DNA of 64,000 bases. Origin: Odiellus spinosus. Lineage: Eukaryota; Arthropoda; Arachnida; Opiliones; Phalangiidae. The notes beneath the pieces were generated by a model. The model saw only the letters and a list, made by a program, of their open reading frames with translations, ran no database searches and was not told the DNA's origin. Positions 1 to 54,502 of this stretch are shown in pieces (position 1 is the stretch's first letter; the number at the start of each line of letters is the position of its first letter). Made by a program: the position numbers and the translations under genes. The stretch is from positions 1,614,501 to 1,678,500 of the forward strand of contig OY987226.1 of NCBI GenBank assembly GCA_963920705.1, in the 5' to 3' direction.

Positions 1-770
1 AAAATAAATAATCAAAGATTTTACAAGGGGTACCCCTTGTAAAAAAATAATACACCCCCTGTAAAATAAATAATCAAATATTTTACAAGGGGTACCCCTT
101 GTAAAAAATAATACACCCCCTGTAAAATAAATAATCAAAGATTTTACAAGGGGTACCCCTTGTAAAAAAATAATACACCCCCTGTAAAATAAATAATCAA
201 AGATTTTACAAGGGGTACCCCTTGTAATAAAATAATACACCCCCTGTAAAATAAATAATCAAAGATTTTACAAGGGGTACCCCTTGTAAAAAAACAATAC
301 ACCCCCTGTAAAATTAAAAATCAAAGATTTTACAACGGTTAACCCTTGTAAAAAAAATAATACATCCCCTGTAAAATAAATAATCAAAGATTTTACCAGG
401 GGTACCCATTGTAAAAAAAAATACACCCCCTGTAAAATAAATAATCAAAGGTTTTACAAGGGGTACCCCTTATAAAAAATAAAACACCCCCTGTAAAATA
501 AATAATCAAAGATTTTACAAGGGGTCTCCCTTGTAAAAAAAATAATACACCCCCTGTAAAATAAATAATCAAAGATTTTATCAGGGGTACCCCTTGTAAA
601 AAAATAATACACCCCCTGTAAAATAAATAATCAAAGATTTTACAAGGGGTAACCCTTGTAAAAAAAAAATAATACACCCCTGTAAAATATATAATCAAAG
701 ATTTTACAAGGGGTACCCGTTGTAAAAAAAATAATACACCCCTGTAAAATAAATAATCAAAGATTTTACA
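1..770. repeat. ~61-bp tandem array, first block
   Basis: About 13 head-to-tail units with a 61-62 bp period. Successive GGGGTACCCC cores start at 27, 89 and 150. Each unit holds the perfect palindrome ACAAGGGGTACCCCTTGT (KpnI site at its centre) and a second half with TACACCCCCTGTAAAA. Units differ by single substitutions and A-run length. No gene is visible. The open frame at 393-698 on the minus strand is a by-product of the repeat. Confidence 0.95.
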
Positions 771-840
771 GGGGGTGTATTATTTTTTTACAAGGGGTCC
801 CCTTGTAAAATATTTGATTATTTATTTTACAGGGGGTGTA
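771..840. repeat. Inverted unit of the 61-bp family
   Basis: At about 768 the array flips strand. The sequence changes from the CACCCC...TTTTACA sense to ACAGGGGGTGTATTATT, then continues with the reverse complement of a full unit up to the edge of the 16-bp array. The flip makes a palindromic junction. Confidence 0.85.
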
Positions 841-2604
841 TAATTTTTCTCAATCTCAATTTTTCTCGATCTCAATTTTTCTCAATCTCAATTTTTCTCA
901 ATCTCAATTTTTCCCAATCTCAATTTTTCCCAATCTCAATTTTTCCCAATCTCAATTTTTCCCAATCTCAATTTTTCTCAATCTTAATTTTTCTCAATCT
1001 CAATTTTTCTCGATCTCAATTTTTCCCAATCTCAATTTTTCCCAATCTCAATTTTTCCCAATCTCAATTTTTCCCAATCTCAATTTTTCCCAATCTCAAT
1101 TTTTCCAAATCTCAATTTTTCTCAATCTTAATTTTTCTCAATCTCAATTTTTCTCGATCTCAATTTTTCCCAATCTCAATTTTTCCCAATCTCAATTTTT
1201 CCCAATCTCAATTTTTCCCAATCTCAATTTTTCCCAATCTCAATTTTTCCCAATCTCAATTTTTCCAAATCTCAATTTTTCTCAATCTTAATTTTTCTCA
1301 ATCTCAATTTTTCTCGATCTCAATTTTTCCCAATCTCAATTTTTCCCAATCTCAATTTTTCCCAATCTCAATTTTTCCCAATCTCAATTTTTCCCAATCT
1401 CAATTTTTCCCAATCTCAATTTTTCCCAATCTCAATTTTTCCCAATCTCAATTTTTCTCAATCTCAATTTTTCTCAATCTCAATTTTTCTCAATCTCAAT
1501 TTTTCTCAATCTCAATTTTTCTCAATCTCAATTTTTCTCAATCTCAATTTTTCCCAATCTCAATTTTTCTCAATCTCAATTTTTCTCGATCTCAATTTTT
1601 CTCGATCTCAATTTTTCTCGATCTCAATTTTTCCCAATCTCAATTTTTCCCAATCTCAATTTTTCTCAATCTCAATTTTTCTCAATCTCAATTTTTCTCA
1701 ATCTCAATTTTTCTCAATCTCAATTTTTCTCAATCTCAATTTTTCTCAATCTCAATTTTTCTCAATCTCAATTTTTCTCAATCTCAATTTTTCCCAATCT
1801 CAATTTTTCCCAATCTCAATTTTTCCCAATCTCAATTTTTCCCAATCTCAATTTTTCCCAATCTCAATTTTTCCCAATCTCAATTTTTCCCAATCTCAAT
1901 TTTTCCCAATCTCAATTTTTCCCAATCTCAATTTTTCCCAATCTCAATTTTTCCCAATCTCAATTTTTCCCAATCTCAATTTTTCCCAATCTCAATTTTT
2001 CCCAATCTCAATTTTTCCCAATCTCAATTTTTCCCAATCTCAATTTTTCCCAATCTCAATTTTTCCCAATCTCAATTTTTCCCAATCTCAATTTTTCCCA
2101 ATCTCAATTTTTCCCAATCTCAATTTTTCCCAATCTCAATTTTTCCCAATCTCAATTTTTCCCAATCTCAATTTTTCCCAATCTCAATTTTTCCCAATCT
2201 CAATTTTTCCCAATCTCAATTTTTCCCAATCTCAATTTTTCCCAATCTCAATTTTTCCCAATCTCAATTTTTCCCAATCTCAATTTTTCCCAATCTCAAT
2301 TTTTCCCAATCTCAATTTTTCCCAATCTCAATTTTTCCCAATCTCAATTTTTCCCAATCTCAATTTTTCCCAATCTCAATTTTTCCCAATCTCAATTTTT
2401 CCCAATCTCAATTTTTCCCAATCTCAATTTTTCCCAATCTCAATTTTTCCCAATCTCAATTTTTCCCAATCTCAATTTTTCCCAATCTCAATTTTTCCCA
2501 ATCTCAATTTTTCCCAATCTCAATTTTTCCCAATCTCAATTTTTCCCAATCTCAATTTTTCCCAATCTCAATTTTTCCCAATCTCAATTTTTCTCAATCT
2601 CAAT
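841..2604. repeat. 16-bp minisatellite, ~110 copies
   Basis: The unit is CTCAATTTTTCCCAAT, with variants CTCAAT, CTCGAT, CCAAAT and CTTAAT. About 1.76 kb, with no other sequence inside. Near 980-1290 a set of variants recurs after 9 and then 10 units (CTTAAT at about 983, 1127 and 1287), a higher-order repeat. From 1790 to 2590 the units are almost identical, so that part was homogenised recently. The 151-codon plus-strand frame at 836-1291 is an artefact. Confidence 0.97.
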
Positions 2605-2792
2605 ACACCCCCTGTAAAATAAATAATCAAAAATTTTACAAGGGTACCCCCTGTAAAAAAAATAATACACCCTTGTAAAATAAACAATCAAAAATTTTAC
2701 AAGGGGTACCTCTTGTTAAAAAAAAAAAAAAAAAAAAAAAATAATACACCCCCTGTAAAATAAACAATCAAAAATTTTACAAGGGGTACCTC

Positions 2793-2827
<35 letters not shown>

Positions 2828-2876
2828 ATACACCCCCTGTAAAATAAACAATCAAAAATTTTACAAGGGGTACCTC

Positions 2877-2911
<35 letters not shown>

Positions 2912-2945
2912 ATACACCCCCTGTAAAATAAACAATCAAAAATTT
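2605..2945. repeat. 61-bp family, second block with A-run expansions
   Basis: The 61-bp family resumes directly after the 16-bp array in the same orientation as 1-770. Later units carry expanded A tracts of about 22-29 bases after CTCTTGT. The 16-bp array therefore sits inside the 61-bp array. Confidence 0.9.
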
Positions 2946-2959
2946 TACAATTTCAATTC

Positions 2960-5900
2960 ATGATTTATTTTCAAGGAGTGCTTTATTTTTGAGGCGTGTT
3001 TTATTTTCAAAGCATGTTTTATTTTCAAAGCGTGCTTTAGTTTCAAGGCTTGTTTTATTTCCAAAATAAGGGGTTTTATTGTTTTTCACTTAGCCAAAAA
3101 TAGGTGTTTTATTTTAGAAGCCTGTTTTATTTTCAAGAAAGGGGTGTTTTATTTTCAAAAAAAGATGTTTTATTTTCAAAAAAAGATGTTTTATTTTCAA
3201 AAAAAGATGTTTTATTTTCAAAAAAAGGGTGTTTTATTTTAAAAAAAAAGGGTGTTTTATTTTCAAAAAAGGAATGTTTTATTTTCAAAAAAGGGGTGTC
3301 TTATTTTCAAAAAAGGGGTGGTTTATTTTCAAAAAAGGGGTGGTTTATTTTCAAAAAGGGTTTATTATTTTAAAAAAAGGGTGTTTTATTTTCAAAAAAG
3401 GGGTGGTTTATTATTTAAAAAAAAAGGGTGTTCAATTTTCAAAAAAGGGGTGATTTATTTTCAAAAAAGGAGTGTTTAATTTTCAAAAAAGGGGTGATTT
3501 ATTTTCAAAAAAGGGGTGTTTTATTTTCAAAAAAGGGGTGTTTTATTTTCAAAAAAGGGGTGGTTTATTTTCAAAAAAGGGGTGGTTTATTTTCAAAAAG
3601 GGTTTATTATTTTAAAAAAAGGGTGTTTTATTTTCAAAAAAGGGGTGTTTTATTTTCAAAAAAGGGGAGTTTTATTTTCAAAAAAGGGGAGTTTTATTTT
3701 CAAAAAAGGGGCGTTTTATTTTCAAAAAAGGGCGTTTTATTTTCAAAAAAGGGCGTTTTATTTTCAAAAAAGGGCGTTTTATTTTCAAAAAAGGGGCGTT
3801 TTATTTTCAAAAAAGGGGCGTTTTATTTTCAAAAAAGGGGCGTTTTATTTTCAAAAAAGGGGCGTTTTATTTTCAAAAAAGGGGCGTTTTATTTTCAAAA
3901 AAGGGGCGTTTTATTTTCAAAAAAGGGGCGTTTTATTTTCAAAAAAGGGGCGTTTTATTTTCAAAAAAGGGGCGTTTTATTTTCAAAAAAGGGGCGTTTT
4001 ATTTGCAAAAAAGGGGCGTTTTATTTTCAAACAAGGGGCGTTTTATTTTCAAAAAAGAGGCGTTTTATTTTCAAAAAGGGCGTTTTATTTTCAAAAAAGG
4101 GGCGTTTTATTTTCAAAAAAGGGGCGTTTTATTTTCAAAAAAGGGGCGTTTTATTTTCAAAAAAGGGGCGTTTTCAAAAAAGGGGCGTTTTATTTTCAAA
4201 AAAGGGGCGTTTTATTTTCAAAAAAGGGGCGTTTTATTTTCAAAAAAGGGGCGTTTTATTTTCAAATAAGGGGCGTTTTATTTTCAAAAAAGGGGCGTTT
4301 TATTTTCAAAAAAGGGGCGTTTTGTTTTCAAAAAAGGGGCGTTTTGTTTTCAAAAAAGGGGCGTTTTGTTTTCAAAAAAGGGGCGTTTTATTTTCAAAAA
4401 AGGGGCGTTTTATTTTCAAAAAAAGGGCGTTTTATTTTCAAAAAAGGGGCGTTTTATTTTCAAAAAAGGGGCGTTTTATTTTCAAAAAAGGGGCGTTTTA
4501 TTTTCAAAAAAGGGGCGTTTTATTTTCAAAAAAGGGGCGTTTTATTTTCAAAAAAGGGGCGTTTTATTTTCAAAAAAGGGGCGTTTTATTTTCAAAAAAG
4601 GGGCGTTTTATTTTCAAAAAAGGGGCGTTTTATTTTCAAAAAAGGGGCGTTTTGTTTTCAAAAAAGGGGCGTTTTGTTTTCAAAAAAGGGGCGTTTTGTT
4701 TTCAAAAAAGGGGCGTTTTATTTTCAAAAAAGGGGCGTTTTCAAAAAAGGGGCGTTTTATTTTCAAAAAAGGGGCGTTTTATTTTCAAAAAAGGGGCGTT
4801 TTATTTTCAAAAAAGGGGCGTTTTATTTTCAAAAAAGGGGCGTTTTATTTTCAAAAAAGGGGCGTTTTATTTTCAAAAAAGGGGCGTTTTGTTTTCAAAA
4901 AAGGGGCGTTTTGTTTTCAAAAAAGGGGCGTTTTGTTTTCAAAAAAGGGGCGTTTTATTTTCAAAAAAGGGGCGTTTTATTTTCAAAAAAAGGGCGTTTT
5001 ATTTTCAAAAAAGGGGCGTTTTATTTTCAAAAAAGGGGCGTTTTATTTTCAAAAAAGGGGCGTTTTATTTTCAAAAAAGGGGCGTTTTATTTTCAAAAAA
5101 GGGGCGTTTTATTTTCAAAAAAGGGGCGTTTTATTTTCAAAAAAGGGGCGTTTTATTTTCAAAAAAGGGGCGTTTTATTTTCAAAAAAGGGGCGTTTTAT
5201 TTTCAAAAAAGGGGCGTTTTATTTTCAAAAAAGGGGCGTTTTATTTTCAAAAAAGGGGCGTGTTATTTTCAAAAAAGGGGCGTGTTATTTTCAAAAAAGG
5301 GGCGTGTTATTTTCAAAAAAGGGGCGTTTTATTTTCAAAAAAGGGGCGTTTTATTTTCAAAAAAGGGGCGTTTTATTTTCAAAAAAGGGGCGTTTTATTT
5401 TCAAAAAAGGGGCGTTTTATTTTCAAAAAAGGGGCGTTTTATTTTCAAAAAAGGGGCGTTTTATTTTCAAAAAAGGGGCGTTTTCAAAAAAGGGGCGTTT
5501 TATTTTCAAAAAAGGGGCGTTTTATTTTCAAAAAAGGGGCGTTTTATTTTCAAAAAAGGGGCGTTTTATTTTCAAAAAAGGGGCGTTTTATTTTCAAAAA
5601 AGGGGCGTTTTATTTTCAAAAAAGGGGCGTTTTATTTTCAAAAAAGGGGCGTTTTATTTTCAAAAAAGGGGCGTTTTATTTCAAAAAAAGGGCGTTTTAT
5701 TTTCAAAAAAGGGGCGTTTTATTTTCAAAAAAAGGGGCGTTTTATTTTCAAAAAAAGGGGCGTTTTATTTTCAAAAAAGAGGTGTTTTATTTTCAAAAAG
5801 GTGTGTTTTATTTTCAAAAAGGTGTTTTATTTTCAAAAAAGTGTTTTATTTTCAAAAAAGGGTGTTTTATTTTCAAAAAAGGGGTGTTTTATTTTCAAAA

Positions 5901-6276
5901 AAGGGGTGTTTTATTTTCAAAAAAGGGGTGTTTTATTTTCAAAAAAGGGGCGTTTTATTTTCAAAAAAGGGGCGTTTTATTTTCAAAAAAGGGGCGTTTA
6001 TTTTCAAAAATGGGGCGTTTTATTTTCAAAAAAGGGGCGTTTTATTTTCAAAAAAGAGGTGTTTTATTTTCAAAAAAGGTGTGTTTTATTTTCAAAAAAG
6101 TGTGTTTTATTTTCAAAAAAGGTGTGTTTTATTTTCAAAAAAGGTGTGTTTTATTTTCAAAAAAGGGTGTTTTATTTTCAAAAAAGGGGTGTTTTATTTT
6201 CAAAAATGGGGTGTTTTATTTTCAAAAAACGGGTGTTTTATTTTCAAAAAAGGGGTGTTTTATTTTCAAAAAAGGG
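2960..6276. repeat. 22-bp minisatellite, forward arm, ~150 copies
   Basis: The core unit is GTTTTATTTTCAAAAAAGGGGC (22 bp). Divergent units flank it (TGTTTTATTTTCAAAGCG at the left edge, AAGGTGTG variants at 5780-6180). The unit has no stop codon in this orientation and 22 is not divisible by 3, so reading cycles through all three frames. This gives overlapping open frames up to 1029 codons (3428-6517), which are not genes. Blocks with TTTTGTTTT or TGTTATTTT variants recur, which suggests block duplication. Confidence 0.97.
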
Positions 6277-8396
6277 GTGTATTTATTATTTTTTTTTTTT
6301 CAGGGGGTGTATTTATTATTTATTTTTTTGCAGGGGGTGTATTTATTATTTTTTTTTACAGGGGTGTATTTATTATTTATTTTCTAAAGGGGGTGTATTT
6401 ATTATTTATTTTTCTTCAGGGGGTGTATTTTTTTTTACAGGGGGTGTATTTATGATTTATTTTTTTACAGGGGGTGTATTTATTATTTTTTTTTACAGGG
6501 GTGTATTTATTATTTAATTTTTTTACTGGGGGTGTATTAATTATTTATTTTTTTACAGGGTGTGTATTTATTATTTTTTTTTACAGGGGGTGTATTTATT
6601 ATTTATTTTTTTTACAGGGGGTGTATTTCTTATTTATTTTTTTTTACAGGGGGTGTATTTCTTATTTATTTTTTTTTTACAGGGGGTGTATTTATTATTT
6701 ATTTTTTTGCAGGGGGTGTATTTATTATTTTTTTTTTTACAGGGGTGTATTTATTATTTATTTTCTAAAGGGGGTGTATTTTTTATTTATTTTTCTTCAG
6801 GGGGTGTATTTTTTTTTTACAGGGGGTGTATTTATGATTTATTTTTTTACAGGGGGTGTATTTATTATTTTTTTTACAGGGGTGTATTTATTATTTAATT
6901 TTTTTACTGGGGGTGTATTAATTATTTATTTTTTTACAGGGGGTGTATTTATTATTTTTTTTTTACAGGGGGTGTATTTCTTATTTATTTTTTTTTACAG
7001 GGGGTGTATTTCTTATTTATTTTTTTTACAGGGGGTGTATTTCTTATTTTTTTGCAGGGGGTGTATTTAAAATTTTTTTTTTTTACAGGGGGTGTATTTC
7101 TTATTTATTTTTTTTACAGGGGGTGTATTTCTTATTTTTTTGCAGGGGGTGTATTTAATATTTTTTTTTTACAGGGGGTGTATTTCTTATTTATTTTTTT
7201 TACAGGGGGTGTATTTCTTATTTATTTTTTTTACAGGGGGTGTATTTCTTATTTATTTTTTTTACAGGGGGTGTATTTCTTATTTATTTTTTTTACAGGG
7301 GGTGTATTTCTTATTTATTTTTTTTACAGGGGGTGTATTTCTTATTTATTTTTTTTTACAGGGGGTGTATTTATCATTTATTTTTTTACAGGGGGTGTAT
7401 TTCTTATATTTTTGCAGGGGGTGTATTTAATATTTTTTTTTTTACAGGGGGTGTATTTCTTATTTAATTTTTTTACAGGGGGTGTATTTCTTATTTATTT
7501 TTTTTACAGGGGGTGTATTTCTTATTTATTTTTTTTTACAGGGGGTGTATTTCTTATTTATTTTTTTTACAGGGGGTGTATTTCTTATTTATTTTCTAAA
7601 GGGGGTGTATTTATTATTTATTTTTCTTCAGGGGGTGTATTTTTTTTTTTTACCCCTGTAAAAAAAATAATAAATACACCCCCTGTAAAAAAATAAATCA
7701 TATATACACCATATATGATTTATTTTTTTACAGGGGGTGTATTTATTATTTTTTTTACAGGGGTGTATTTATTATTTAATTTTTTTACTGGGGGTGTATT
7801 AATTATTTATTTTTTTACAGGGGGTGTATTTATTATTTTTTTTTACAGGGGGTGTATTTCTTATTTATTTTTTTTACAGGGGGTGTATTTCTTATTTATT
7901 TTTTTTACAGGGGGTGTATTTCTTATTTATTTTTTTTACAGGGGGTGTATTTCTTATTTATTTTTTTTACAGGGGGTGTATTTCTTATTTATTTTTTTTT
8001 ACAGGGGGTGTATTTATTATTTATTTTTTTTACAGGGGGTGTATTTATTATTTATTTTTTTGCAGGGGGTGTATTTATTATTTTTTTTTTACAGGGGTGT
8101 ATTTATTATTTATTTTCTAAAGGGGGTGTATTTATTATTTATTTTTCTTCAGGGGGTGTATTTTTTTTTTTTTTTACAGGGGATGTATTTCTTATTTATT
8201 TTTTTTTACAGGGGGTGTATTTCTTATTTATTTTTTTTACAGGGGGTGTATTTCTTATTTATTTTTTTTTACAGGGGGTGTATTTCTTATTTTTTTGCAG
8301 GGGGTGTATTTAATAATTTTTTTTACAGGGGGTGTGTTTACTATTTATTTTTTTCAGGGGGTGCATTTATTAATTTTATTTTTACAGGGGGTGTAA
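6277..8396. repeat. ~31-bp minisatellite, forward arm
   Basis: The unit is roughly TTTCTTATTTATTTTTTTTACAGGGGGTGTA, 29-32 bp, about 68 copies. Subtypes are TTTATTATT, TTTCTTATT, TTTGCAGGGGG and a TTTTCTAAAGGGGG / TTTTTCTTCAGGGGG pair that recurs at about 6384, 6764, 7594 and 8117. The ACAGGGGGTGTA core is also found in the 61-bp family. The open frames here are repeat artefacts. Confidence 0.95.
7652..7764. repeat. Perfect 54-bp inverted repeat with 5-nt loop
   Basis: Arms 7652-7705 and 7711-7764 pair base for base around the loop ACACC at 7706-7710. The arms are 31-bp-family units, so a small piece of the array is inverted inside the forward arm. Confidence 0.92.
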
Positions 8397-8588
8397 ATAA
8401 TAAATACACCCCTTGTAAAAAAAAAAATAAGAAATACACCCCCTGTAAAAAATAAATAATAAATACACCCCCTGTAAAAAAAAATAAATAATAAATACAC
8501 CCCCTGTAAAAAAATAAATAATATATACACCCCCTGTAAAAAAAATAAATAATATATACACCCTCTGTAAAAAAATAAATAATAAATA
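8397..8588. repeat. 31-bp minisatellite, inverted arm
   Basis: About six units of the 31-bp family as reverse complement (TACACCCCCTGTAAAAAAATAAATAATAAA). They start at the mirror point where GGGGGTGTAAATAATAAATACACCCC reads into its own complement around 8399. Confidence 0.93.
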
Positions 8589-9941
8589 CGCCCCTTTTTT
8601 GAAAATAAAACGCCAATTTTTTGAAAATAAAACGCCCCTTTTTTGAAAATAAAACGCCCCTTTTTTGAAAATAAAATGCCCCTTTTTTGAAAATAAAACG
8701 CCCCTTTTTTTTGAAAATAAAACGCCCCTTTTTTGAAAATAAAACGCCCCTTTTTTGAAAATAAAACGCCCCTTTTTTGAATATAACACGCCCCTTTTTT
8801 GAAAATAACACGCCCCTTTTTTGAAAATAACACGCCCCTTTTTTGAAAATAACACGCCCCTTTTTTGAAAATAACACGCCCCTTTTTTGAAAATAACACG
8901 CCCCTTTTTTGAAAATAACACGCCCCTTTTTTGAAAATAATACGCCCCTTTTTTGAAAATAACACGCCCTTTTTGAAAATAACACGCCCGTTTTTTGAAA
9001 ATAACACGCCCTTTTTGAAAATAACACGCCCCTTTTGAAAATAAAACGCCCCTTTTGAAAATAAAACGCCCCTTTTGAAAATAAAACGCCCCTTTTTTGC
9101 AAATAAAACGCCCCTTTTTTGAAAATAAAACGCCCCTTTTTTGCAAATTAAACTTCCCTTTTTTGAAAATTAAACGCCCCTTTTTTGAAAATTAAACGCC
9201 CCTTTTTTGAAAATAAAACGCCCCTTTTTTGAAAATAAAACGCCCCTTTTTTGAAAATAACACGCCCTTTTTTTGAAAATAACACGCCCCTTTTTTGAAA
9301 ATAAAACGCCCCTTTTTTGCAAATTAAACGCCCCTTTTTTGAAAATTAAACGCCCCTTTTTTGAAAATTAAACGCCCCTTTTTTGAAAATTAAACGCCCC
9401 TTTTTTGAAAATTAAACGCCCCTTTTTTGAAAATAAAACGCCCCTTTTTTGAAAATAAAACGCCCCTATTTTGAAAATAAAACGCCCCTTTTTTGAAAAT
9501 AACACGCCCTTTTTTTGAAAATAACACGCCCCTTTTTTGAAAATAAAACGCCCCTTTTTTCAAATAAAACGCCCCTTTTTGCAAATAACACGCCCCTTTT
9601 TTGAAAATAAAACACCCCTTTTTTCAAATAAAACGTCCCTTTTTTCAAATAAAACGTCCCTTTTTTCAAATAAAACGCCCCTTTTTTCAAATAAAACGCC
9701 CCTTTTTTCAAATAAAACGCCCCTTTTTGCAAATAAAACGCCCCTTTTTGCAAATAAAACGCCCCTTTTTTGCAAATAAAACGCCCCTTTTTTTGCAAAT
9801 AAAACGCCCCTTTTTTGAAAATAAAACGCCCCTTTTTTGAAAATAAAACGCCCCTTTTTTGAAAATAAAACGCCCCTTTTTTGAAAATAAAACGCCCCTT
9901 TTTTGAAAATAAAACGCCCCTTTTTTGAAAATAAAACGCCC
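8589..9941. repeat. 22-bp minisatellite, inverted arm, ~61 copies
   Basis: Units CGCCCCTTTTTTGAAAATAAAA are the exact reverse complement of the forward 22-bp family. Sub-blocks have AACACG, ATTAAACG, CAAATAAAAC and TTTGCAAAT variants. The order 22-bp then 31-bp on the left and 31-bp then 22-bp on the right makes 2960-9941 a mirrored block. Open frames on the minus strand (8341-9973) are artefacts. Confidence 0.95.
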
Positions 9942-9952
9942 GTTTTAATATC

Positions 9953-10024
9953 GGGTCCGCCCGGTAATTGCACCCGGGACCACTCGCACCCTAAGCGAGA
10001 ATTATACCACTAAACCAACGGACT
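9953..10024 (-). tRNA. tRNA-Pro(AGG)-like, probably degenerate
   Basis: On the minus strand a 72-nt stretch folds like an insect tRNA-Pro. The anticodon stem CTCGC/GCGAG closes the loop TTAGGGT (anticodon AGG), and there is a D-arm with TTTAGTGGTA and an intact GGTCCCGGG run. Defects: the first acceptor pair would be A-C, the T-loop reads TGCAATT instead of TTCAAAT, and the 3' side of the T-stem has one mismatch. It could be a pseudogene, a tRNA-derived element or a weakly active gene. It begins 11 bp from the end of the 22-bp array and shares no sequence with it. Confidence 0.6.
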
Positions 10025-14160: not shown

Positions 14161-15080
14161 AGTTAAGAACCGTAGGAGAATTATATTTAAAAACTTAGCA
14201 ACTAACCCTTTAGCCGCTCTGATTGTAACAACTATCCTTTTCTGATTAGAGATAGGTTTTAATCAGGTTCTCTCTGACGAGAGTAGAGCCAGGTAGTGAG
14301 GGTTGGAGTGCACCCAACGGTACTACTAATGTAAGTCGTTTTATTTGGTTTTGGCTCGGCCCCTTCTTTTTATGACGCCAGATAGGAAAGGGTTTTTGTA
14401 GGCCACTTATACTCGCTAGCCCGGTAACTGGTTTTCGAAACTTTCTTAACGCAACTTTTGGAAACTTTCGCTTCATCGGTTGTTAAAAAAGGGGGCTTCC
14501 ATGGTTTCGCGAGTTCGTGATTTGTTTTAGCCATTTTAATAATGATTTGAAGAGAGTCTGAAGGAGAAATCGGAAGCCCTATTTCCTTATCGTTTAAAAA
14601 CTCCTAATCCAACAGTAAAACAATTTTCAAACAAATATTAAACTAGAATTAAATTTAAAACAAAATAGGCTTAGCTGGATTATCGACCCACCAATAAAAA
14701 CCTCGTTAAAAAAAGCCAATCAAATTGGAAACGTAACGCTACATAATAAAATACATTGAGTAGTATAATTTTTGTAGATTTTTTACCACGGAAATGATAA
14801 TAGAATTAGCTCTCCTTCCTGCGCACCAAACCCCTTCAATTACCAAGTCATACGCCATATTATATCTCCCGCAAAACTGGGGCGCCCAAAAAAGTGAAGT
14901 GGCGCAAAAAAGCGCCTCACCAAACGGCACGTGCCGCCAATATTACATTAGAATGGATACAGGAAACACCACCGCCGTTCGGGGGTCCTCTGCCCGTTAG
15001 AGGAATACTGACAAGGACCTTGCAGCAAGAATAGCTTAACTTCAAAAAAACACTATTTAAATATAATGTAACAACATTTA
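14161..15080. other. Non-coding stretch with TTAA-MITE fragment
   Basis: About 14600-14705 is a fragment of the TTAA-flanked family (CAAATATTAAACTAGAATTAAA, AAAATAGGCTTAGCTGGATT). Nothing else is recognisable. The minus-strand frame at 14246-14476 has no family resemblance. Confidence 0.6.
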
Positions 15081-15084
15081 ATTA

Positions 15085-15775
15085 TTTAGCGCAACCGCAT
15101 TTAATCATTTAACGAGCGACATTTAAATATTTAACGAGCGACATTTAAATATTTAACGAGCGACATTTAAATATTTAACGAGCGACATTTAAATATTTAA
15201 CGAGCGACATTTAAATATTTAACGAGCGACATTTAAATATTTAACGAGCGACATTTAAATATTTAACGAGCGACATTTAAATATTTAACGAGCGACATTT
15301 AAATATTTAACGAGCGACATTTAAATATTTAACGAGCGACATTTAAATATTTAACGATCGACATTTAAATATTTAACGATCGACATTTAAATATTTAACG
15401 ATCGACATTTAAATATTTAACGATCGACATTTAAATATTTAACGATCGACATTTAAATATTTAACGATCGACATTTAAATATTTAACGATCGACATTTAA
15501 ATATTTAACGATCGACATTTAAATATTTAACGATCGACATTTAAATATTTAACGATCGATATTTAAATATTTAACGATCGACATTTAAATATTTAACGAG
15601 CGACATTTAAATATTTAACGATCGACATTTAAATATTTAACGATCGACATTTAAATATTTAACGATCGACATTTAAATATTTAACGATCGACATTTAAAT
15701 ATTTAACGAGCGACATTTAAATATTTAACGAGCGACATTTAAATATTTAACGAGCGACATTTAATTATTTAATAC
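15085..15775. repeat. 22-bp minisatellite, ~31 copies
   Basis: The unit is ATTTAAATATTTAACGAGCGAC. The first ~11 units carry CGAGCG. From about 15355 most carry CGATCG, with a return to CGAGCG near 15600 and in the last units. It contains AT palindromes (ATTTAAAT) and, in the second subtype, PvuI sites (CGATCG). It is unrelated in sequence to the 22-bp array at 2960-6276. Confidence 0.95.
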
Positions 15776-16015
15776 GTCATTTAATTATTTAATGCAACAT
15801 TGAAATATTTAATGAGCTATATTTAATAATGTTAAATATTTAATGAGCGATATTTAATACTGTTAAATATTTAATGAGCGATATTTAATACTGTTAAATA
15901 TTTAATGAGCGATATTTAATACATTTAAATATTTAATGAGCGATATTTAATACATTTAAATATTTAATGAGCGATATTTTATACAATTAAATATTTAATG
16001 CCACATTTAAATAGT
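15776..16015. repeat. Diverged extension of the 22-bp array
   Basis: Longer, looser units (ATTTAATACTGTTAAATATTTAATGAGCGAT, about 31-33 bp) share TTTAAATATTTAA with the adjacent array and appear to be its older edge. Confidence 0.85.
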
Positions 16016-21172: not shown

Positions 21173-21754
21173 TATACGGTCCATTTCCAGGTAAACTGTG
21201 CCCGCGTAGGTTTGACTATACTAAGGTGATTACGTAAGCGTGTATGTATTTAGTATCTTCAAAGGCTGTAATCAGTCGCGTGACTCGCGTCTATTTGGGC
21301 ATTCTATTTCATATTAGAATAACATTACAGCATCATCTATAACGAAATGATTTCGGTTAATTTCCCTCGCGAAACTTGGTTAAGACGAAATTTAAGCGGA
21401 TTTCGTTTCTGATATATTTAAAGATTCGGAGAAACAGCGTGATATAATTGGAGAAAGAGGAGGAGTAGATATTCGCAGCCAAGAGTGGTTTTCGTTCGAA
21501 AAGGGGGCTGCCCGTTTTGTGGCTCCCCTTTTAAGCCTCGTTGACTAAGTAGCCAATGGCGAGCCTCCCGAGACAAGGCGCCTTAAACGAACCGAGAATC
21601 TGATTAAACATATTTATTATTCATCTCGGAACCGATCATTTACATAAAGTTAATGGAGGAGACCTCTCTCTCTTTCATCCGTTATACCCAACAGTCGGAG
21701 AAAGGAGGCAAGAGACGTTGGAAGGAAACGTGAATACCTTACAATTTAAACTCA
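21173..21754. other. Non-coding stretch
   Basis: No gene seen. A slightly richer GC segment lies at 21460-21600. No repeat family recognised. Confidence 0.5.
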
Positions 21755-22281
21755 GATCGATCCATTATCTTCCGTTATTCGTATATTTTCAGATATTTAT
21801 TTTCGGATAAATTGTTCGTAACTAAAACAATGAAATTTGTATATTCGTATAATTGTTAAACGTATAAGGTTTACCCGAAGATAAGCCTTCGCCGCTTTAT
21901 CTATCTACAAATTACTCGTATTCGAACGTATAACGATGGATAAGAAACATTCGCGTTTCCAGAATTAGTCTAAAATATAAGAAACAATATTTCAAATTGA
22001 CTTTTAATTCGAAGAATAGAAATAAAACGATAAGATTTTAAATCATCTTTTTATTCGTTATTTTTCACGAAAATAAATTTTGAATTTAATTTTTATCCGA
22101 ACGTATAACGCGGATAATATTCTAAGATAAGTTACCATTTTTGGATAAAAACGGATATGGATTAGGAAATTGTTTTACTTTATCTACGAATAAGTTAACA
22201 CGAATAAGTTTAAACAGATAATATACATCAGAATTTAGTAGATTTTATCCAATTAATAAAAATTATACGAATTCAGAGCTC
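21755..22281. mobile_element. GAGCTC-family TA element, 5' end decayed
   Basis: GATCGATCCATTATCTTCCG at 21755 through AATTCAGAGCTC at 22281, then TA. It is collinear with the intact copy at 53645-54202 but lacks the left GAGCTC terminus. Confidence 0.82.
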
Positions 22282-22757
22282 TAAGTAGATGTATTCAATT
22301 AATAAAAGTTATACAAATTTCGACTTGAAATTGGTTAATTCCGTATTCATGGTTCCTTTTAAAAAGGGGTGGGGGAATGAAGTTAAGGAGTAGGGAGTCA
22401 TTGGAAGCCAATATTTGGTTTGCCGCTCGATTTCGTTCCTACAATGTAAGTGAATTTCCGCGACGAGAAGCCAAGTAGGTAGCGGGCAGACCAGAGCAGC
22501 GAGCTCTTTATTAAGACACGGCTACCGCCTAGGAGGGATTAGTGGATATCAACCCACACCCCCAACCCTTTCTATTTAAACCAAAATGGATGATGCCATT
22601 ATATATTATAATATATGTACCCGAGCCGGTGCGTTGCGGAAATACATGCCTATCGCTTTCCATTATATTAGTGAGATTGTTAAAGGATGGATGGAAATGA
22701 AATTGGAAGTGATTTTGAATTGATTTTGCTTCTAAAATTAAGCTATAAGGAACGTTA
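22282..22757. other. Non-coding stretch
   Basis: No gene seen. A short second copy of the GAGCTC-family right end (ATTCAATTAATAAAAGTTAT) lies at 22293-22325. Confidence 0.5.
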
Positions 22758-23559
22758 ATGGGCATGCTTCACGCAGTTTAGTACAGTGGAAGGCTTCACG
22801 CAGTTTTGTACAGTGGAAGGCTTCACGCAGTTTAGTACAGTGGAAGGCTTCACGCAGTTTAGTACAGTGGAAGGCTTCACGCAGTTTAGTACAGTGGAAG
22901 GCTTCACGCAGTTTAGTACAGTGGAAGGCTTCACGCAGTTTAGTACAGTGGAAGGCTTCACGCAGTTTAGTACAGTGGAAGGCTTCACGCAGTTTAGTAC
23001 AGTGGAAGGCTTCACGCAGTTTAGTACAGTGGAAGGCTTCACGCAGTTTAGTACAGTGGAAGGCTTCACGCAGTTTAGTACAGTGGAAGGCTTCACGCAG
23101 TTTAGTACAGTGGAAGGCTTCACGCAGTTTAGTACAGTGGAAGGCTTCACGCAGTTTAGTACAGTGGAAGGCTTCACGCAGTTTAGTACAGTGGAAGGCT
23201 TCACGCGAAGTGCTTCGCTAGCTTTCCACTGTTCTTCGCTAGATGTGAACAAGAAGGATCAGATAAGGAGAGGAAAAGTGGGAACGGCGCGGCTCCTACT
23301 GCGTCGGCCTAAACTCCCACTCTGGGAGAACGGGGGACAGACGGGGGTAGAGATGCTTCGTGGTAAATTGTTGTCACGTGGGTAAAACGAATCCTTTATG
23401 AGACGCGCTAGCTAACGACCACGTGACAACAGTTTACCTCGAGAATTTCCTATCCCCCCCTTTCCACCCGAGTGGGAGGTTGGCTCTTCTCTCTCTAACT
23501 CAACGCAGCCCCACTTTTCCTCTCCTTATCTGATCCTTCTTGATGTGAAGCATGCCCAT
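22758..23559. mobile_element. Foldback element with embedded minisatellite
   Basis: Termini ATGGGCATGCTTCAC (22758) and GTGAAGCATGCCCAT (to 23559) are inverted. A long stem pairs 23240-23290 (AAGAAGGATCAGATAAGGAG then GGAAAAGTGGG) with 23505-23545, and an inner pair GGTAAATTGTTGTCACGTGG / CCACGTGACAACAGTTTACC closes it near 23361-23440. The left terminus is expanded into the array at 22766-23205. About 802 bp, no transposase, no clear target duplication. Confidence 0.82.
22766..23205. repeat. 27-bp minisatellite, ~16 copies
   Basis: The unit is GGCTTCACGCAGTTTAGTACAGTGGAA, nearly identical between copies. 27 bp is nine codons, so both strands stay open (EGFTQFSTV repeated on the plus strand, CVKPSTVLN on the minus). 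The frames (22786-23385 plus, 22755-23252 minus) run on through the rest of a foldback element and look like artefacts, although a repeat protein cannot be excluded by sequence alone. Confidence 0.95.
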
Positions 23560-24246
23560 CAATGATCAGGAAACAACATTTTTCACGAGTGTAACAGAGT
23601 TGTTTACTTAGAAATAATATTTTTGAAGTGTTTGTTAGAGGAATTAACCCTTGAAACTCATAGAAATTCAAATACAAATCATTATATGAATCTATTTCAT
23701 TAAAATATATCTATTATCAAAAGTTTAGAGCTCTATTCCACGAAAGTAAACAACGCCCCATAGCCGCGTTAAAAGTGACAGACTTTTATTATAGTTAGAA
23801 TTCTTCAATTAATTTTCCAAAAATTAAGTAATACTCTTTCCTCCGGTAATATACCGAGTTGCGGGCCATGTTTCATTTAACCTCCGTCCCAAATAGTCTC
23901 TTCCCTTATATAACTAATAACCTATTTGATCGAATCTAGTACAAACTAATATAGGATATAGCGAAAAAAATACATTTTTCTTCAGGGAGCGAACTAGAAT
24001 GTCGGAATAAAGGAACGCAGCTGTTCCACGCTAAGAGAGATCCGCCCAATATGACACAACGGGTTCCTGAGCCTCGATCTTACAAAATACACGTGAAAAT
24101 ACATCGAACATACTGCACGCAACAATATAAACTTATACAGGGTGTTAAAAAATATCAAAAAATTAAGGAATTTTTAAAATTAAAAATCTCTCGAAAATAT
24201 CGTTGACGTCATGAATAGACTAAAGCTTTTTTTGGCTCGGTGATTA
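23560..24246. other. Non-coding stretch
   Basis: No gene seen. TATACAGGGTGTTAAAAAAT at about 24136 resembles the terminus of the TA-flanked element at 45475-46406 but has no partner end nearby. Confidence 0.5.
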
Positions 24247-24772
24247 GAGCTTGGAATTCGTATAATTTTTATTAATTGGGTAAAATCTACTAAATTCTGA
24301 TGTTTGATTAAAAATAGTCTATTTTTCATTCCGAGTTAACTTATTCCAAGATAAAGTAAAAATCCATATCCGTTTTTATCCAAAAATGGCCGCCTTATCT
24401 TAGAATATTATCCATTGCGTTATACGTTCGGATAAAAATTAAATTCAAAATTTAATTCCGTGAAAAATAACAAATAAATGATGATTTAAAATCTTATTGT
24501 TTTATTTCTATTCTTCGAATTAAAAGTCAATTTGAAATATTGTTTCTTATATTTTAGACTAATTCTGGAAACGCGAATGTTTCTTATCCATCGTTATACG
24601 TTCGAATACGAGTAATTTGTAGATAGATAAAGCGGATAAGGCTTATCTTCCGGTAAACCTTATACGTTTAACAATTATACGAATATAGAAATTTCATTGT
24701 TTTAGTTACAAAACAATTTATCCTTGAATAAAATATCTGAAAATATACGAATAACGGAAGATAATGGAGCTC
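24247..24772. mobile_element. GAGCTC-family TA element, full-length, reverse orientation
   Basis: GAGCTTGGAATTCG at 24247 and GAGCTC at 24767-24772, each next to TA. The interior is the reverse complement of 53645-54202 (TTAATTGGGTAAAATCTACT, CGTTATACGTTCGGATAA, AATATACGAATAACGGAAGA). About 526 bp, no coding capacity. Confidence 0.85.
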
Positions 24773-26506: not shown

Positions 26507-27050
26507 TAGCTACCTACTGATGCAAGGGTGAAAATATTTACCATAGGTAAACACGCTAGTGCAAAGGCTGTCGTGGGCAGGAGATTTTTCGTATACACGG
26601 TTCGGTTCGTCGATAGCCAATCGGTTAAGTAGGTTCCTCAATGTTTCGCTAAGTATATTTTATATATGTATATGGTATACGCAAACGAGGTATTCCGAAA
26701 GATATTTTTTGATTAGACGCTAGGGTATTTTTTTTTTATTTTAGGTTCAGATACGATTGAAAAATATGGATTAGATTGAATGGATTGCGTGGCTGCTACT
26801 GTATGGGTATTTGAATATTTGCAAATAGGCTTAAATAATATATATAATAATAATTTATCTAAGTGCTATAATAAATTGCTAAGTTACTAACCGAGGGTTC
26901 GGACACATTCATTTACATGGCAATATATTCTAAAGATCATATTATTTCAGTCTTCAACAGTGCTCGTAATGTGGTATCATTAACAGGGTTGATGTTCAAG
27001 GTCTTAGGCATCAAATACCGGCCAATTCTTTTAATGGTATTACATTACAA
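24773..27050. other. Non-coding stretch
   Basis: No gene seen. It holds a dispersed repeat at 25205-25440 (reverse complement of 49213-49435), a 39-base poly(A) run at 26463-26501, and a fragment at 26945-27040 (TCTTCAACAGTGCTCGTAAT) shared with 10490 and 63480. The poly(A) run could be the tail of a retroposed copy, but nothing recognisable precedes it. Confidence 0.55.
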
Positions 27051-27388
27051 CAGAAGCCGATGAAACCCTCCTTTGAAGTCTATTACTCCCGGGTCTTGTC
27101 TACCCCTCTCTGTATGGGTTAGTTTCAAAAAGCGCGATTCGTACGCCTCCTAACGGTAGATGTTTTCGGAGCGGGAGCTCGTCGAGCGAATATCTCTAGC
27201 AGCCTCGGAGTTCGTCCAAAAAATGTCGTCGTTTGTGGAGAGAGAGAATTTCCAATTTTGCGTAGACAGGGGGGGATGAAGTAGGACCCCTCCGATCTCG
27301 TAAAATTGGGAATTTTACCCATATAGAGAGGAGCGCTGTATGGAACATTAGAGTAGTAGACTTCAAAGGAGGGTTTCATCGGTTTCTG
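27051..27388. mobile_element. CAGAAGCCGATG-family MITE, copy 1
   Basis: Inverted termini CAGAAGCCGATGAAACCCTC / GAGGGTTTCATCGGTTTCTG, about 38 bp, plus inner inverted CCTCTCTGTATGGGT / ACCCATATAGAGAGG. 338 bp. Unlike copies 2 and 4 it has no flanking duplication (ATTACAA left, CTAATAG right). Minus-strand frames inside are not genes. Confidence 0.88.
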
Positions 27389-27461
27389 CTAATAGGAAGT
27401 AACGCTATAAAAAGCGAAAATGGTTTAAAGGCAAAGAAGCGGCTGAGAGACAGAAAAATAT
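27389..27461. repeat. 73-bp duplication, copy A
   Basis: Identical over 73 bases to 29015-29087. It begins at the exact right end of the MITE at 27051-27388. Confidence 0.92.
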
Positions 27462-28260: not shown

Positions 28261-28267
28261 GAAATAA

Positions 28268-28605
28268 CAGAAGCCGATGAAACCCTCCTTTGAAGTCTAT
28301 TACTCCCTGGTCTTGTCTACCCCTCTCTGTATGGGTTATTTTCAAAAAGCGCGATTCGTACGCCTCCTAACGGTAGATATTTTCGGAGCGGGAGTTCGTC
28401 GAGCGAATATCTCTAGCAGCCTTGTAGTTCGTCAAAAAAACGTCGTCGTTTGTGGTGAGAGAGAATTTCCAATTTTCCGTAGACAGGGGGGTACGAAGTA
28501 GGACCCCTCCGATCTCGTAAAATTGTGAATTTTACCCGTACAGAGAGGCGCGCTATATGGAACATTAGAGTAGTAGACTTCAAAGGAGAGTTTCATCGGC
28601 TTCTG
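28268..28605. mobile_element. CAGAAGCCGATG-family MITE, copy 2, 7-bp TSD
   Basis: 338 bp between perfect duplications GAAATAA (28261-28267 and 28606-28612). Termini and interior as in copy 1. Confidence 0.93.
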
Positions 28606-28612
28606 GAAATAA

Positions 28613-29014
28613 TGACAGTGGTTATCCTGTATTAAGGGTAAGGTTGTGTAAGTTCAAATTCCTTACGTGATACAACGTATTTTTCAAACAACTCAGTATG
28701 TCGTCATAATTCTAGTCCAGGGGTAAATTATTTTTGATATCAATGGTTCCAGATGAATTTTGTTTACCATCAAAAGTAAACAAATTGCTAAAAAGAGGTC
28801 AAAGTTTAACGCCACTCGTATCAATTTCCTAAATAACAATGAGTACGAATTGTAAGTTTGCCGTTACATTCGGGCATACGTTAACTCGAATAAGAAATGG
28901 ATATGTTTTTCGCGAACGGATAATATCCGATTGACATTCAAGGATGGTCTTAATTATTCAATTATTGAAAGTTATACGAATTCAGAGCTTAGCATATTTC
29001 GACGGTATAGTTAA
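28613..29014. other. Non-coding stretch
   Basis: 28846-28989 is a fragment related to the GAGCTC family (TAAGTTTGCCGTTACATTCG, TTATACGAATTCAGAGCT). No gene seen. Confidence 0.55.
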
Positions 29015-42217: not shown

Positions 42218-42556
42218 CAGAAGTAGATGAAACCCTCCTTTGAAGTCTATTACTCCCGGGTCTTGTCTACCTATCTCTGTATGGGTTAGTTTCAAAAAGC
42301 GCGATTCGTACGCCTCCTAACGGTAGATATTTTCGGAGCGGGAGTTCGTCGAGCGAATATCTCTAGCAGCCTCGGAGTTCGTCAAAAAAATCGTCGTCGT
42401 TTGTGGAGAGAGAGAATTTCCAATTTTCCGTAGACGAGGGGGTATGAAGTAGGACCCCTCCGATCTCGTAAAATTGGGAATTTTACCCATACAGAGAGGA
42501 GCGCTATATCGAACATTAGAGTAGTAGACTTCAAAGGAGGGTTTCATCTACTTCTG
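42218..42556. mobile_element. CAGAAGCCGATG-family MITE, copy 3
   Basis: Termini CAGAAGTAGATGAAACCCTC and GAGGGTTTCATCTACTTCTG, 339 bp. Flanks TAATGAC and TAATAAT share only part of a possible 7-bp duplication. The TAGATG terminus is a subtype also seen at the right end of copy 4. Confidence 0.88.
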
Positions 42557-42718
42557 TAATAATTTTTTTAAATGAAACAAAATGTCATAATCACGGAGAA
42601 ACGTCTTGAGACCATAATAACTGAAGTGATCCTATTTTTTATACCAGATTTTTGCTCTATTTCCATTGTGAAAAAGGTCTATACGGAAATATTTTTTTCT
42701 CCGTATGACAGCTAGGTT

Positions 42719-44005: not shown

Positions 44006-44287
44006 TCAATGTTGAACGGCTGAATATTTCATGCGTTTTTGCTTTTGGCGTTGATTGCAAAACCAGACTCGAACGACGTTTTTCTTGAGATCTAGTTTCT
44101 CCGCGATGGCGGCAATTTTCTCGCCGGACGGCCTGGGCTGGACGGCGAAATAGGCCTCTAAGGAGCGTTTTTCCGGAGCGGCGATCGAAGTCCGTTTCCT
44201 TTTCTTCTCGCCGGACGGGAGGACGCTAGGACTCTCCGGATCTCGCCGTTTGCTCTTCGCTTGAGCCTCGGCCGCTTCCAGCCACGC
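44006..44287 (-). CDS. acj6: acj6 homeodomain exon (POU class IV), terminal coding exon
   Basis: 94 codons including the stop at 44006-44008. Acceptor TTTTTCAG|GCG at 44288-44289, phase 0. It encodes the last residues of the POU-specific domain (AWLEAAE), a basic linker (SKRRDPESPSVLPSGEKK), and the homeodomain starting RKRTSIAAPEKRSLEAYF. Helix 3 is VVRVWFCNQRQKQKR, with the Cys typical of POU homeodomains in the recognition helix. The tail is MKYSAVQH. Acj6 binds DNA in the nucleus and specifies olfactory and other neurons in Drosophila. Known fly isoforms alter the basic residues at the homeodomain start, but here KKRKR is encoded inside the exon with no splice site beside it. Confidence 0.97.
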   Translation of the reverse strand, partial: AWLEAAEAQAKSKRRDPESPSVLPSGEKKRKRTSIAAPEKRSLEAYFAVQPRPSGEKIAAIAEKLDLKKNVVRVWFCNQRQKQKRMKYSAVQH

Positions 44288-44504
44288 CTGAAAAACAGAC
44301 CAAAGATAACGCGGAGTTGGCTTAAAACCTGGATTCATTATTCAAACGGATAACGACTGGACAAAAATGGTTTCTTTAAAGGGAAACTTGATGCTAAAAA
44401 TGGAACAGCTTTTACATTTATTTTACGAGAATTTTCAAGTAATTTTTAGACACGTTTTTTTGGTGTTTAAATTAATTTCTGGTAAAACTTCTCATTCCAA
44501 ATAT

Positions 44505-44925
44505 GAAGAGTTCTCCATCCAAAATTGAAGAATACTAAATCCAAAATTGAAGAATTCTCCTTCCAAAACTGAAGAATTCTCCTTCCAAAATTGAAGAATT
44601 CTCCATCCAAAACTGAAGAATTCTCCTCCCAAACCTGAAGAATTCTCCTCCCAAACCTGAAGAATTCTCCATACAAATTGAAGAATTCTCCATACAAATT
44701 GAAGAATTCTCCATACAAATTGAAGAATTCTCCATACAAATTGAAGAATTCTCCATACAAATTGAAGAATTCTCCATACAAATTGAAGAATTCTCCTTCC
44801 AAAATTGAAGAATTCTCCATTAAAAATATGAAGAATTCTTCATCCAAAAGATGAAGAAGTCTCCATTAAAAATATGAAGAATTCTCCATCCAAAATTGAA
44901 TAATTCTCCCTCCTTCCAAAGTTAA
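44505..44925. repeat. 21/22-bp EcoRI-site minisatellite in acj6 intron
   Basis: Units GAAGAATTCTCCATACAAATT (21 bp) and GAAGAATTCTCCTTCCAAAATT (22 bp), about 19 copies, each with GAATTC. The minus-strand frames at 44467-44847 (LYGEFFN repeats) lie within an intron and are artefacts. Confidence 0.93.
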
Positions 44926-45474: not shown

Positions 45475-46406
45475 CAGGGTGTCAATTCTAAAGATATCTA
45501 TGGCTTCCTTTTTACAAGTACGTCAATGTTTTTACTGCCCGGAGAAGAAGATTGCCTGAACTTGTCTTTTCATCATCTGACGAAAGGGGAAAATGTTTAC
45601 ATCTTATATTAGAAGAGAATTCTTCCATCTTATAGGCGCCAAATTGATGGAATAGCCTACACGAAGGGATTTTTAATTATTTCAATCCAATCAATGGGCT
45701 TGATAAGGAAGTATATCGACAATTGAGAATTCTACCATTTTAGGAGGTGATCAAAATATTTATTATTGAATGAGAATTATGGTTTCTTGGTAAGAGAGAA
45801 AGAAGGAAATATTCTACATCTTTGGAAAGAGGGAGAGTTCTTCAATTTTTGAAAGGAGAATTCTTCAATTTTTGAAAGGAGAATTCTTCAATTTTTGAAG
45901 GAGAATTCTTCAATTTTTGAAAGGAGAATTCTTCAATTTTTGAAAGGAGAATTCTTTAATTTTTGGAAGGAGAATTCTTTAATTTTTGGAAGGAGAATTC
46001 TTTAATTTTTGGAAGGAGAATTCTTCAATTATTGCAAGGAGAATTCATCAATTTTTGGAAGGAAAATTCTTCAATTTTTGGAAGGAAAATTCTTGAATTT
46101 TTGGAAGGAAAATTCTTCAATTTTTGGAAGGAAAATTCTTGAATTTTTGGAAGGAAAATTCTTCAATTTTTGGAAGAAGAATACTTCAATTTTTGGAAGA
46201 AGAAATTGTTCAGTTTTTGGAATGAGAATTCTCCATTCTTGGGTGGCTAAGAGGTAATTCTACAACTTCAAATAAAAAATGTTTCTACATTCTTCGGGTG
46301 AAAATAATCCTCCTTTAATAATAATTACTTCTTGGGAAACCCTACGTTTTGGAGTTGGTCTAATTATCTGATACGTACTGAGCCGCACGGTACTTATGAC
46401 ACCCTG
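45475..46406. mobile_element. TA-flanked element containing a minisatellite
   Basis: CAGGGTGTCA at 45475 and TGACACCCTG to 46406 are inverted and flanked by TA (45473-45474, 46407-46408). About 930 bp. Roughly 400 bp of it is the 23-bp array below, and the rest has no coding capacity. Confidence 0.7.
45838..46235. repeat. 23-bp EcoRI-site minisatellite, opposite orientation
   Basis: The unit is GGAGAATTCTTCAATTTTTGAAA, later GGAAAATTCTTCAATTTTTGGAA, about 17 copies. It is the reverse complement of the array at 44505-44925. The plus-strand frame at 46009-46257 is an artefact. Confidence 0.93.
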
Positions 46407-47417
46407 TATATCTAAATCCGCGTGTCTATAGATAGCGGCAAAACGAAATCTTTGACGCTTAACGAAAGTAGATTGGCTAAAGAGGCATTCTTGAATTTTT
46501 CATCGGTCCGGTACTAACAGGGATATTTCGTCGCTTCTCGAGTCAGCTTTTAACGCGATTTGGCCCAAATTTGGGGAAAAGAGGTGGCTCGAACGCTTCC
46601 TTACCCCGTTCCTCCGATAGGTCCGGGCTAATTTTAGCCCCTCTTTGAAATATACGAACATAATCGTAGGCTTTCGCGGCGCGTGAAACGAAGAGAGGCC
46701 CCAGAGGTTAATGAAATTATATTTAGTTTTCTAACATACTCTCTCTCTCGCTCTCTGATGGCCTTATTAGCCCGGGTTCGTTCTAGGTGGGGGATTCTTT
46801 TAATTAAATTATATATCGTCGAGCTCAATTTTTACAAAATTCCAAAAGGGAATACCAAGTTGCGTAGGAAAAGTTAGAGAGATTAAATGTATACTCGAAA
46901 AATTAATGAGATTTCCAAATATTTCACCGTCTTTTTTTTGTTTTTCTAAGTATTTCGTCAAGGATTTTATCCAATTTTGATCGATTTCAACTTATTTGGC
47001 CCTCTTTGGAATCATTTTGTAGGCTTTTGGAATGTACAGACGATTTATTACGCACGAGAGAGATTAATAAGAATTCATATTTGTAATATTTTTTTTAGGA
47101 ATTAAAATGATCTTAAGTTTCAAAATATTTCGTTTATATTTAAATGATTTCAAGCGGTCTTAAAATATTAACTCGTAAGATTTCCAGAATTGGAATCGGG
47201 GCGTTCAGAATTATAATCGTTCGTTCAGAAATAGAAGCCGCTACTGGCGTCTTTAAAACCGCGTGTACGTCAAAAGTACGCGTCATGGAAAAATGAAAAG
47301 TAGAGCAACGGTTCAACAACCATCCAAACTTGATATTAGATAGAAAACTTCGTCGTTAAATATTCCGAAGCAATCGAGATCTCGGATTTCATAAGGATTA
47401 AGAAATGGTATCTTTAC

Positions 47418-49840: not shown

Positions 49841-49847
49841 GTAGCAG

Positions 49848-54202: not shown

Positions 54203-54204
54203 TA

Positions 54205-54502
54205 ATCAGTAATCACCCCTAATAAATAATAATCTAAAAATGTTCTGGGGAAAAAAAAAATAGAAAACTAATGTATATTTAATTTTAACCGTGAATTTAT
54301 GTTCAAGGGTGATGGGTTTTACAGCTTCGTGACATATATAAGTCTTTATTTACCAATATAGGAGAAATTACGTCGTGAAGTATGGGTTAAGGACATGATC
54401 TCAAAGTGGCAAATGATATCGGTGCCATGAAAAATTGATATTATAATTAAATTTAAATGTCACCATTCTTTCCCAATATTTATTTTTATCTTTTTCATAC
54501 CA
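54205..54502. other. Non-coding stretch
   Basis: AT-rich. Nothing recognised. Confidence 0.5.

Follow-up and report, generated by a model that had tools for sequence, protein, structure and literature searches.

A minisatellite block in Odiellus spinosus as a probable eroded member of a dispersed family of foldback-like palindromic repeats

Instability is expected of long palindromes. The nearest published system that we found to the one considered here comprises the macro-dyad symmetries of Tribolium madens, which the accessible part of the report describes as kilobase satellite arrays with one orientation change (usually two unequal opposed subarrays), whose units derive from ~110 bp, which lie in multi-megabase putative (peri)centromeric regions and which turn at highly conserved inversion sites (PMC13081366). 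Foldback systems offer a second comparison: the available excerpt on Tetris of Drosophila virilis gives complete copies 8–10-bp target-site duplications (PMC4079207), and foldback inversions in yeast are attributed, in the portion of that work at hand, to single-strand hairpins (PMC7467729). Here we consider a minisatellite block in the arachnid Odiellus spinosus (assembly of 443 Mb in 286 contigs), within a stretch of 64,000 nucleotides (C2:1614501–1678500) that, at its full length, we call the window and to which all positions without a contig name refer. Instability notwithstanding, this genome carries long minisatellite-built palindromes, of one polarity, at many sites, and we put at roughly 60% the probability that the window block is an old and in part eroded member of such a family, dispersed in the genome and resembling foldback elements.

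The first-pass annotation had described the block as two tandem families repeated in reverse order and orientation, turning near 8399 between unequal arms of ~5.4 and ~1.5 kb. Tandem Repeats Finder recovers this layout—a 22-bp array at 3124–6287, a 31-bp array at 6274–8395, a reverse-complement 30/31-bp array at 8395–8594 and a reverse-complement 22-bp array at 8581–9946—and a 9-nt turn lies at 8396–8404, between arms measured at 2951–8395 and 8405–9946 (Table 1). To this are added related 62-bp, 16-bp, linker and 18-bp modules at 1–3065, which the first-pass annotation did not report. The relation between the 22-bp and 31-bp units (the latter a core plus filler) is weak (0.047 of shuffles, uncorrected, among 105 unit pairs). 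Neither pattern had a match in viral contigs, nor did the 22-bp pattern in prokaryote contigs, results that say little because those collections hold viral and prokaryote contigs.

A purely local structure was dropped as an account of the block once exact 22-mers were found elsewhere in the genome. There are 379 copies (242 plus, 137 minus), and among the 100 of these 379 matches that were listed, C1 holds 22-mers at two places, each with plus units followed by minus units 13–16 kb on. Transition zones between modules recur exactly as well. The 22–31 junction has five copies (two in the window, two at C2:2.38 Mb, which is our locus 4, and a single one at locus 5, C3:9.34 Mb), and the junction between linker and 22-bp array has 28 (18 plus, 10 minus), scattered across 10 contigs (e.g., five places along 1.7–12.6 Mb of C14). 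Linker–22 junctions lying within 30 kb of one another form five inward pairs and no outward pair. Long inverted arms of tandem repeats and dispersed copies, both features of the foldback type, are present. Grouped by position, the 28 junctions fall at 19 places (loci 3 and 4 plus 17 others), and seven of the 17 others were read, each at least partly; two unread places, C1:19.96 and C14:1.7, show an inward pair by position. The resulting census has 12 loci: the window (locus 1), loci 2–5 and loci 6–12.

The order 22-bp (+), core (+), core (−), 22-bp (−) is complete at eight of the 12 loci (1–6, 8 and 11), and the four read in part (7, 9, 10 and 12) agree with it: locus 7 has no left 22-bp array in the 30 kb read, the reading of loci 9 and 10 ends before any right 22-bp array, and at locus 12 the right arm alone was read, with the left junction placed by position and the turn not included. 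With a major turn defined as at least four like-signed cores on each side and <400 nt between them, the DNA read contains 11 inward and no outward turns, at 10 of the 12 loci; the minus cores of locus 8 are too few to satisfy this rule. Smaller switches of both kinds exist, e.g., at 767 and 7652–7764 of the window. The shortest span, at locus 8, is 5 kb between junctions, and the longest, at locus 2, is about 34 kb. Palindromy, as far as seen, accompanies loci carrying the 22-bp module. Modules also seem to be repeated in tandem at two places: the linker–22 module at C3:25780651–25783664, where four plus junctions fall, by position, in 3 kb, and the core–22 module at C4:24617070–24619971, where core and 22-bp blocks alternate.

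The window turn, GGGGGTGTAAATAATAAATACACCCC, occurs with its exact 26-bp context at two genome places only, the window and locus 4 (C2:2380091), 0.76 Mb apart. At locus 4 the core arms (695 and 672 bp) are 90.7% identical and collinear (score 15.19 vs. a mean of 9.51, SD 1.26 and maximum 14.42 in 300 shuffles). At locus 4 the variant GTGTTTACTATTTA flanks the turn on both sides, and in the window it does so on the left arm; loci 2, 3 and 5 lack it. Given this exact turn shared with a collinear locus, the window palindrome probably spread as a palindrome, its arms having since turned over; most likely, a single ready-made palindrome gave rise to both the window block and locus 4, and the window arms were reworked later.

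Locus 2 runs 16/19-bp array, core 32a, linker, 22, core 32b, turn, 32b, 22, linker, 32a and 16/21-bp array, with its inner and outer core variants at mirrored places, three mirrored junctions up to 31 kb apart and outer junctions that on both sides are, by eye, TTTTCTCAATTTTCGTATTTTTTACAGGGGGTGTA. Its linker and the mirrored copy differ by four mismatches in the first 138 columns and by indels after these (85% over 201 columns), and its core arms are very unequal (0.7 and 14.8 kb). At locus 3, the variant TTACGGGGGG occurs 10 times, six just left and four just right of the turn, and locus 6 (16,027 bp, with unique DNA outside) has 27 identical inverted nt at its ends. Core arrays also resemble their partners across the turn: 16-mer containment is 0.50 between the 31-bp arms of the window, 0.47 (inner) and 0.83 (outer) at locus 2 and 0.37 at locus 3, vs. 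lower values of ≤0.30 between core arrays of different loci in the pairs compared (≤0.21 from the window to loci 2 and 3). The 22-bp arrays show no clear locus-specific 16-mer signature.

The imperfect palindrome of the first-pass annotation holds for family order and orientation; a unit-by-unit mirror is absent. Mirrored unit pairs at the window turn have a mean identity of 0.84, vs. 0.863 for random pairings (P = 0.86), and the right core block in its best register reaches 0.900, vs. 0.905 for shuffled orders (P = 0.88). The order of 22-bp units gives a mirror score of 15.3 (150 shuffles: mean 10.8, SD 2.2, maximum 19.3) and, reversed, 15.8. As positive controls for such unit-order tests, the left 22-bp array against itself scored 41.6 vs. 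15.6 when shuffled (i.e., higher-order repeats were detected), and locus 4 served as the second. Beside the turn, the ungapped mirror register has 58 of 66 positions identical (rank 7 of 2,056) and ranks 2 of 2,032 at 90 nt and 117 of 1,932 at 190 nt, and the gapped register lies at or below the median for all four lengths tried. Six core variants characteristic of the left arm (2–7 copies each) have no copy in the right arm, and six 22-bp variants divide into two left-only, two right-only and two common to both. One-sided examples (left/right copies) are CTAAA (4/0), TTTTGTTTTC (9/0) and TTTAATTTTC (0/6); GTGTTATT, with three copies on the left and 14 on the right, is common to both arms. A recent mirror duplication producing the present arms was rejected, as they differ unit by unit and show no collinearity. 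The real inverted duplication that had been proposed for the block therefore survives as a statement about origin (shared locus-specific core filler and an identical turn at the collinear locus 4) and not as a recent copying of the arms now seen.

To account for these patterns, we propose a common plan that leads from outer modules (16-bp, 18-bp or both) through linker and 22-bp array to core and turn and then repeats the modules in reverse, the main core array having its G-rich strand directed inward. The outer modules vary by locus. An ancestral fold-back within a core array would have yielded the first palindrome. The core, TACA-GGGGG-TGTA, is quasi-palindromic, so that a nascent strand could re-pair on either strand, and short fold-back template switches of this sort probably created the first palindrome and still create small ones such as 7652–7764. 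We infer this template-switch step from the sequence, where the short loops at the turns and the 54-bp event point to it. Copies would then have spread as ready-made palindromes, either transposed by borrowed machinery or copied ectopically or through circular DNA. Later, the minisatellites would have expanded, shrunk and been homogenised site by site (slippage, unequal exchange, conversion), and arm lengths and core filler would therefore be locus-specific. The right arm of the window would have lost its outer modules. We assign no cellular role to the block.

Several observations weigh against this account. The window arms are not collinear today, and the window is without an exact linker–22 junction. 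The 12 loci were picked via the 22-bp unit or its junctions, so the census is selected on the 22-bp module, and 10 of the 17 other junction places were left out of it. Palindromy does not extend to every core array: a core 20-mer has 29,469 plus and 47,601 minus exact copies, and on C1, among the 100 copies listed, the first two core islands contain 41 each, all of them plus, making C1:188757–190602 and C1:458063–461227 one-way islands by exact match. Linker cores outside the 22-bp array face the opposite way, too distant (>400 nt) to count as turns. The outer modules of locus 3 are not an exact mirror (left 16, 18, 62; right core, 16, 18/19), core units differ between the two arms at loci 5 and 7, and the turns read differ apart from those of loci 1 and 4, a pattern that separate fold-backs would give as well. 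Only locus 6 showed matching ends, with no matching terminal sequences at the borders of loci 1, 2 or 3 as drawn. Finally, no target-site duplication was found at the window block, the window composite or loci 2, 3 and 6, where all borders except those of locus 6 are uncertain. A transposon with target-site duplication was rejected on this result, and because of it we do not file the block as a foldback transposon.

The alternative that survives best, and that we regard as possible though doubtful, is that a single-armed compound minisatellite (linker, 22, core) was dispersed and that each locus later folded back within its own core array, either when replication switched template or when repair was primed from a hairpin. 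The loops differ in length (9 nt in the window, against 14 and 8 nt at loci 2 and 3), as do turn sequences between most loci, core filler is mostly locus-specific and common to both arms, and the mirrored turn variant of locus 3 and the 54-bp palindrome of the window resemble such events. Independent folding would nonetheless have to occur separately at each locus, on the same side every time, and it sits poorly with the one turn common to the window and locus 4 and with the three mirrored junctions of locus 2. The foldback-like family remains our preferred reading. An architecture under selection, in which the inward palindrome would be kept because of what its symmetry does for chromatin or for the segregation of chromosomes, as has been proposed for the Tribolium macro-dyads, seems to us unlikely. 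By that analogy the scattered 5–34-kb minisatellite dyads would be dispersed chromatin or centromere-like units whose symmetry is kept while sequence and turn are free, a suggestion to which we give little credence. Inward polarity and module order do stay fixed while sequence changes, with copies on at least 10 contigs; set against this are the very unequal arms (e.g., the locus 2 core) and the existence of one-way core islands. Very unlikely, in turn, is a plain inversion in an ordinary tandem array via ectopic recombination, followed by drift, with the likeness elsewhere reflecting shared satellite families: it would suit the non-collinear window arms and the frequency with which arrays switch orientation (e.g., the unrelated inverted pair 44489–44913 / 45832–46232), and is opposed by the 11:0 excess of inward major turns and by locus 4, which has the same turn with collinear arms. 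An assembly fold-back, the artefact raised by the first-pass annotation, is extremely improbable and was rejected because the arms, as their sequence reads, carry different and in part one-sided unit variants and are not collinear, where a fold-back would give near-identical arms, because the 58/66 match is no excess over other registers and because comparable architecture recurs at the other loci examined, even if the 54-bp perfect palindrome could reflect a minor error in a read or in the assembly.

Table 1. Features of the block and its borders, in window coordinates; units were counted with cuts at 3066–6273, 6274–8395, 8405–8594 and 8594–9946 (141, 67, 6 and 61 units).
Position	Strand	Feature	Remarks
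1–767	−	62-bp array; unit is a minus-orientation core plus a 26-bp palindrome	extends left; start C2:1613898 (603 bases before window)
768–840	+	single 62-bp unit, orientation opposite to neighbouring array	plus cores at 768 and 829
842–2604	+	16-bp array AATTTTTCCCAATCTC	family also flanks other loci
2602–2950	+	linker-type 61/84-bp units (AATAATCAAAAATTTTACAAGGGGTACC)	cores minus-oriented
2951–3065	+	degenerate 18-bp module (TTTATTTTCAAGGCGTGT)	
3066–6273	+	left-arm 22-bp array (GTTTTATTTTCAAAAAAGGGGC)	141 units
6274–8395	+	left-arm 31-bp core array (TTTTTACAGGGGGTGTA plus filler)	67 units; higher-order repeats
7652–7764	.	perfect palindrome within left arm, 54-bp arms, loop ACACC (5 nt)	inverted copy of adjacent units
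8396–8404	.	turn, 9-nt loop AATAATAAA	
8405–8594	−	right-arm 31-bp core array	6 units
8594–9946	−	right-arm 22-bp array	61 units; no outer modules beyond
9953–10024	−	tRNA-like sequence (weak) at right edge	probably outside element; 30.7 bits, gathering 29

Folding predictions bear on the suggestion that the block could extrude. One strand around the turn (8330–8470) folds at −47.1 kcal/mol, vs. −15.0 (SD 2.7) in 200 shuffles, a predicted energy with which extrusion at the window turn is possible. The palindrome at 7652–7764 folds at −56.9 kcal/mol, vs. −12.5 in shuffles; it is one small event, recent or artefactual. Open frames of up to 1,032 aa run through the window arrays and were rejected as genes, being explained by repeat units free of stops, and stop-to-stop frames of ≥120 aa in four other stretches of this genome likewise resemble repeat translations.

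The tRNA-like sequence that abuts the array has a CTTAGGG anticodon loop (read as proline AGG) and scored its 30.7 bits in a 501-base search; ARAGORN predicted no gene there and the whole-window Rfam search had no hit to it, and it is possibly a decayed tRNA or a SINE end. Elsewhere in the window, another 22-bp array runs into a related 31-bp array at 15074–16000, with a sequence that differs from the main block. The unrelated 22/23-bp minisatellite pair mentioned above (44489–44913 and 45832–46232, opposite orientations, 109-nt arms 82% complementary) lies between two exons of a POU4/acj6-like gene, whose homeodomain and POU-domain exons occupy 44006–44341 and 47313–48077 (minus strand); best matches of the POU exon are to Limulus (78%), a scorpion (77%) and spiders (73–74%). 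A dispersed ~540-bp repeat, 89–91% identical, occurs at 21752–22284, 24241–24768 and 53655–54205, and two of its copies, inverted ~2 kb apart around a 27-bp array (22766–23206), are perhaps a small inverted-repeat transposon. A 345-bp dispersed repeat is present in four direct copies, about 94% identical (27048–27394, 28266–28613, 42218–42563 and 49499–49843).

Besides Tetris, Galileo is reportedly a further example of a foldback element, and short-range template switching is said to be likewise comparable where short loops and inverted neighbour copies are concerned. No foldback report in arachnids was among the best literature matches, which is no proof of absence. Like foldback elements such as Tetris, so far as the available excerpt presents it, the family described here has long inverted repeats made of internal tandem repeats, is dispersed and has repeats that are also satellite-like; unlike Tetris, it shows no target-site duplication at the window or loci 2, 3 and 6, the elements read are nearly all array DNA and their arms reach about 15 kb or more (PMC4079207). 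With the yeast foldback inversions it shares short turn loops and, in the window, a perfect inverted copy of neighbouring sequence, whereas those inversions, in the accessible part of the report, are single rearrangements and the palindromes here are of one polarity at many loci (PMC7467729). Compared with the Tribolium madens macro-dyads, as partly available to us, opposed subarrays (the 11 inward turns at 10 of 12 loci) and specific transition zones between two satellites are held in common; in contrast, the units here are 17–32 bp long, they form 5–34-kb islands along contigs, and inversion sites are mostly not conserved, with an exact turn at two genome places (PMC13081366). The loci form a natural series, from collinear arms (locus 4) through mirrored variants (loci 2 and 3) to eroded arms (the window), that lets the origin, spread and decay of palindromes be tested and that could show whether a single process has foldback elements at one extreme and satellite macro-dyads at the other.

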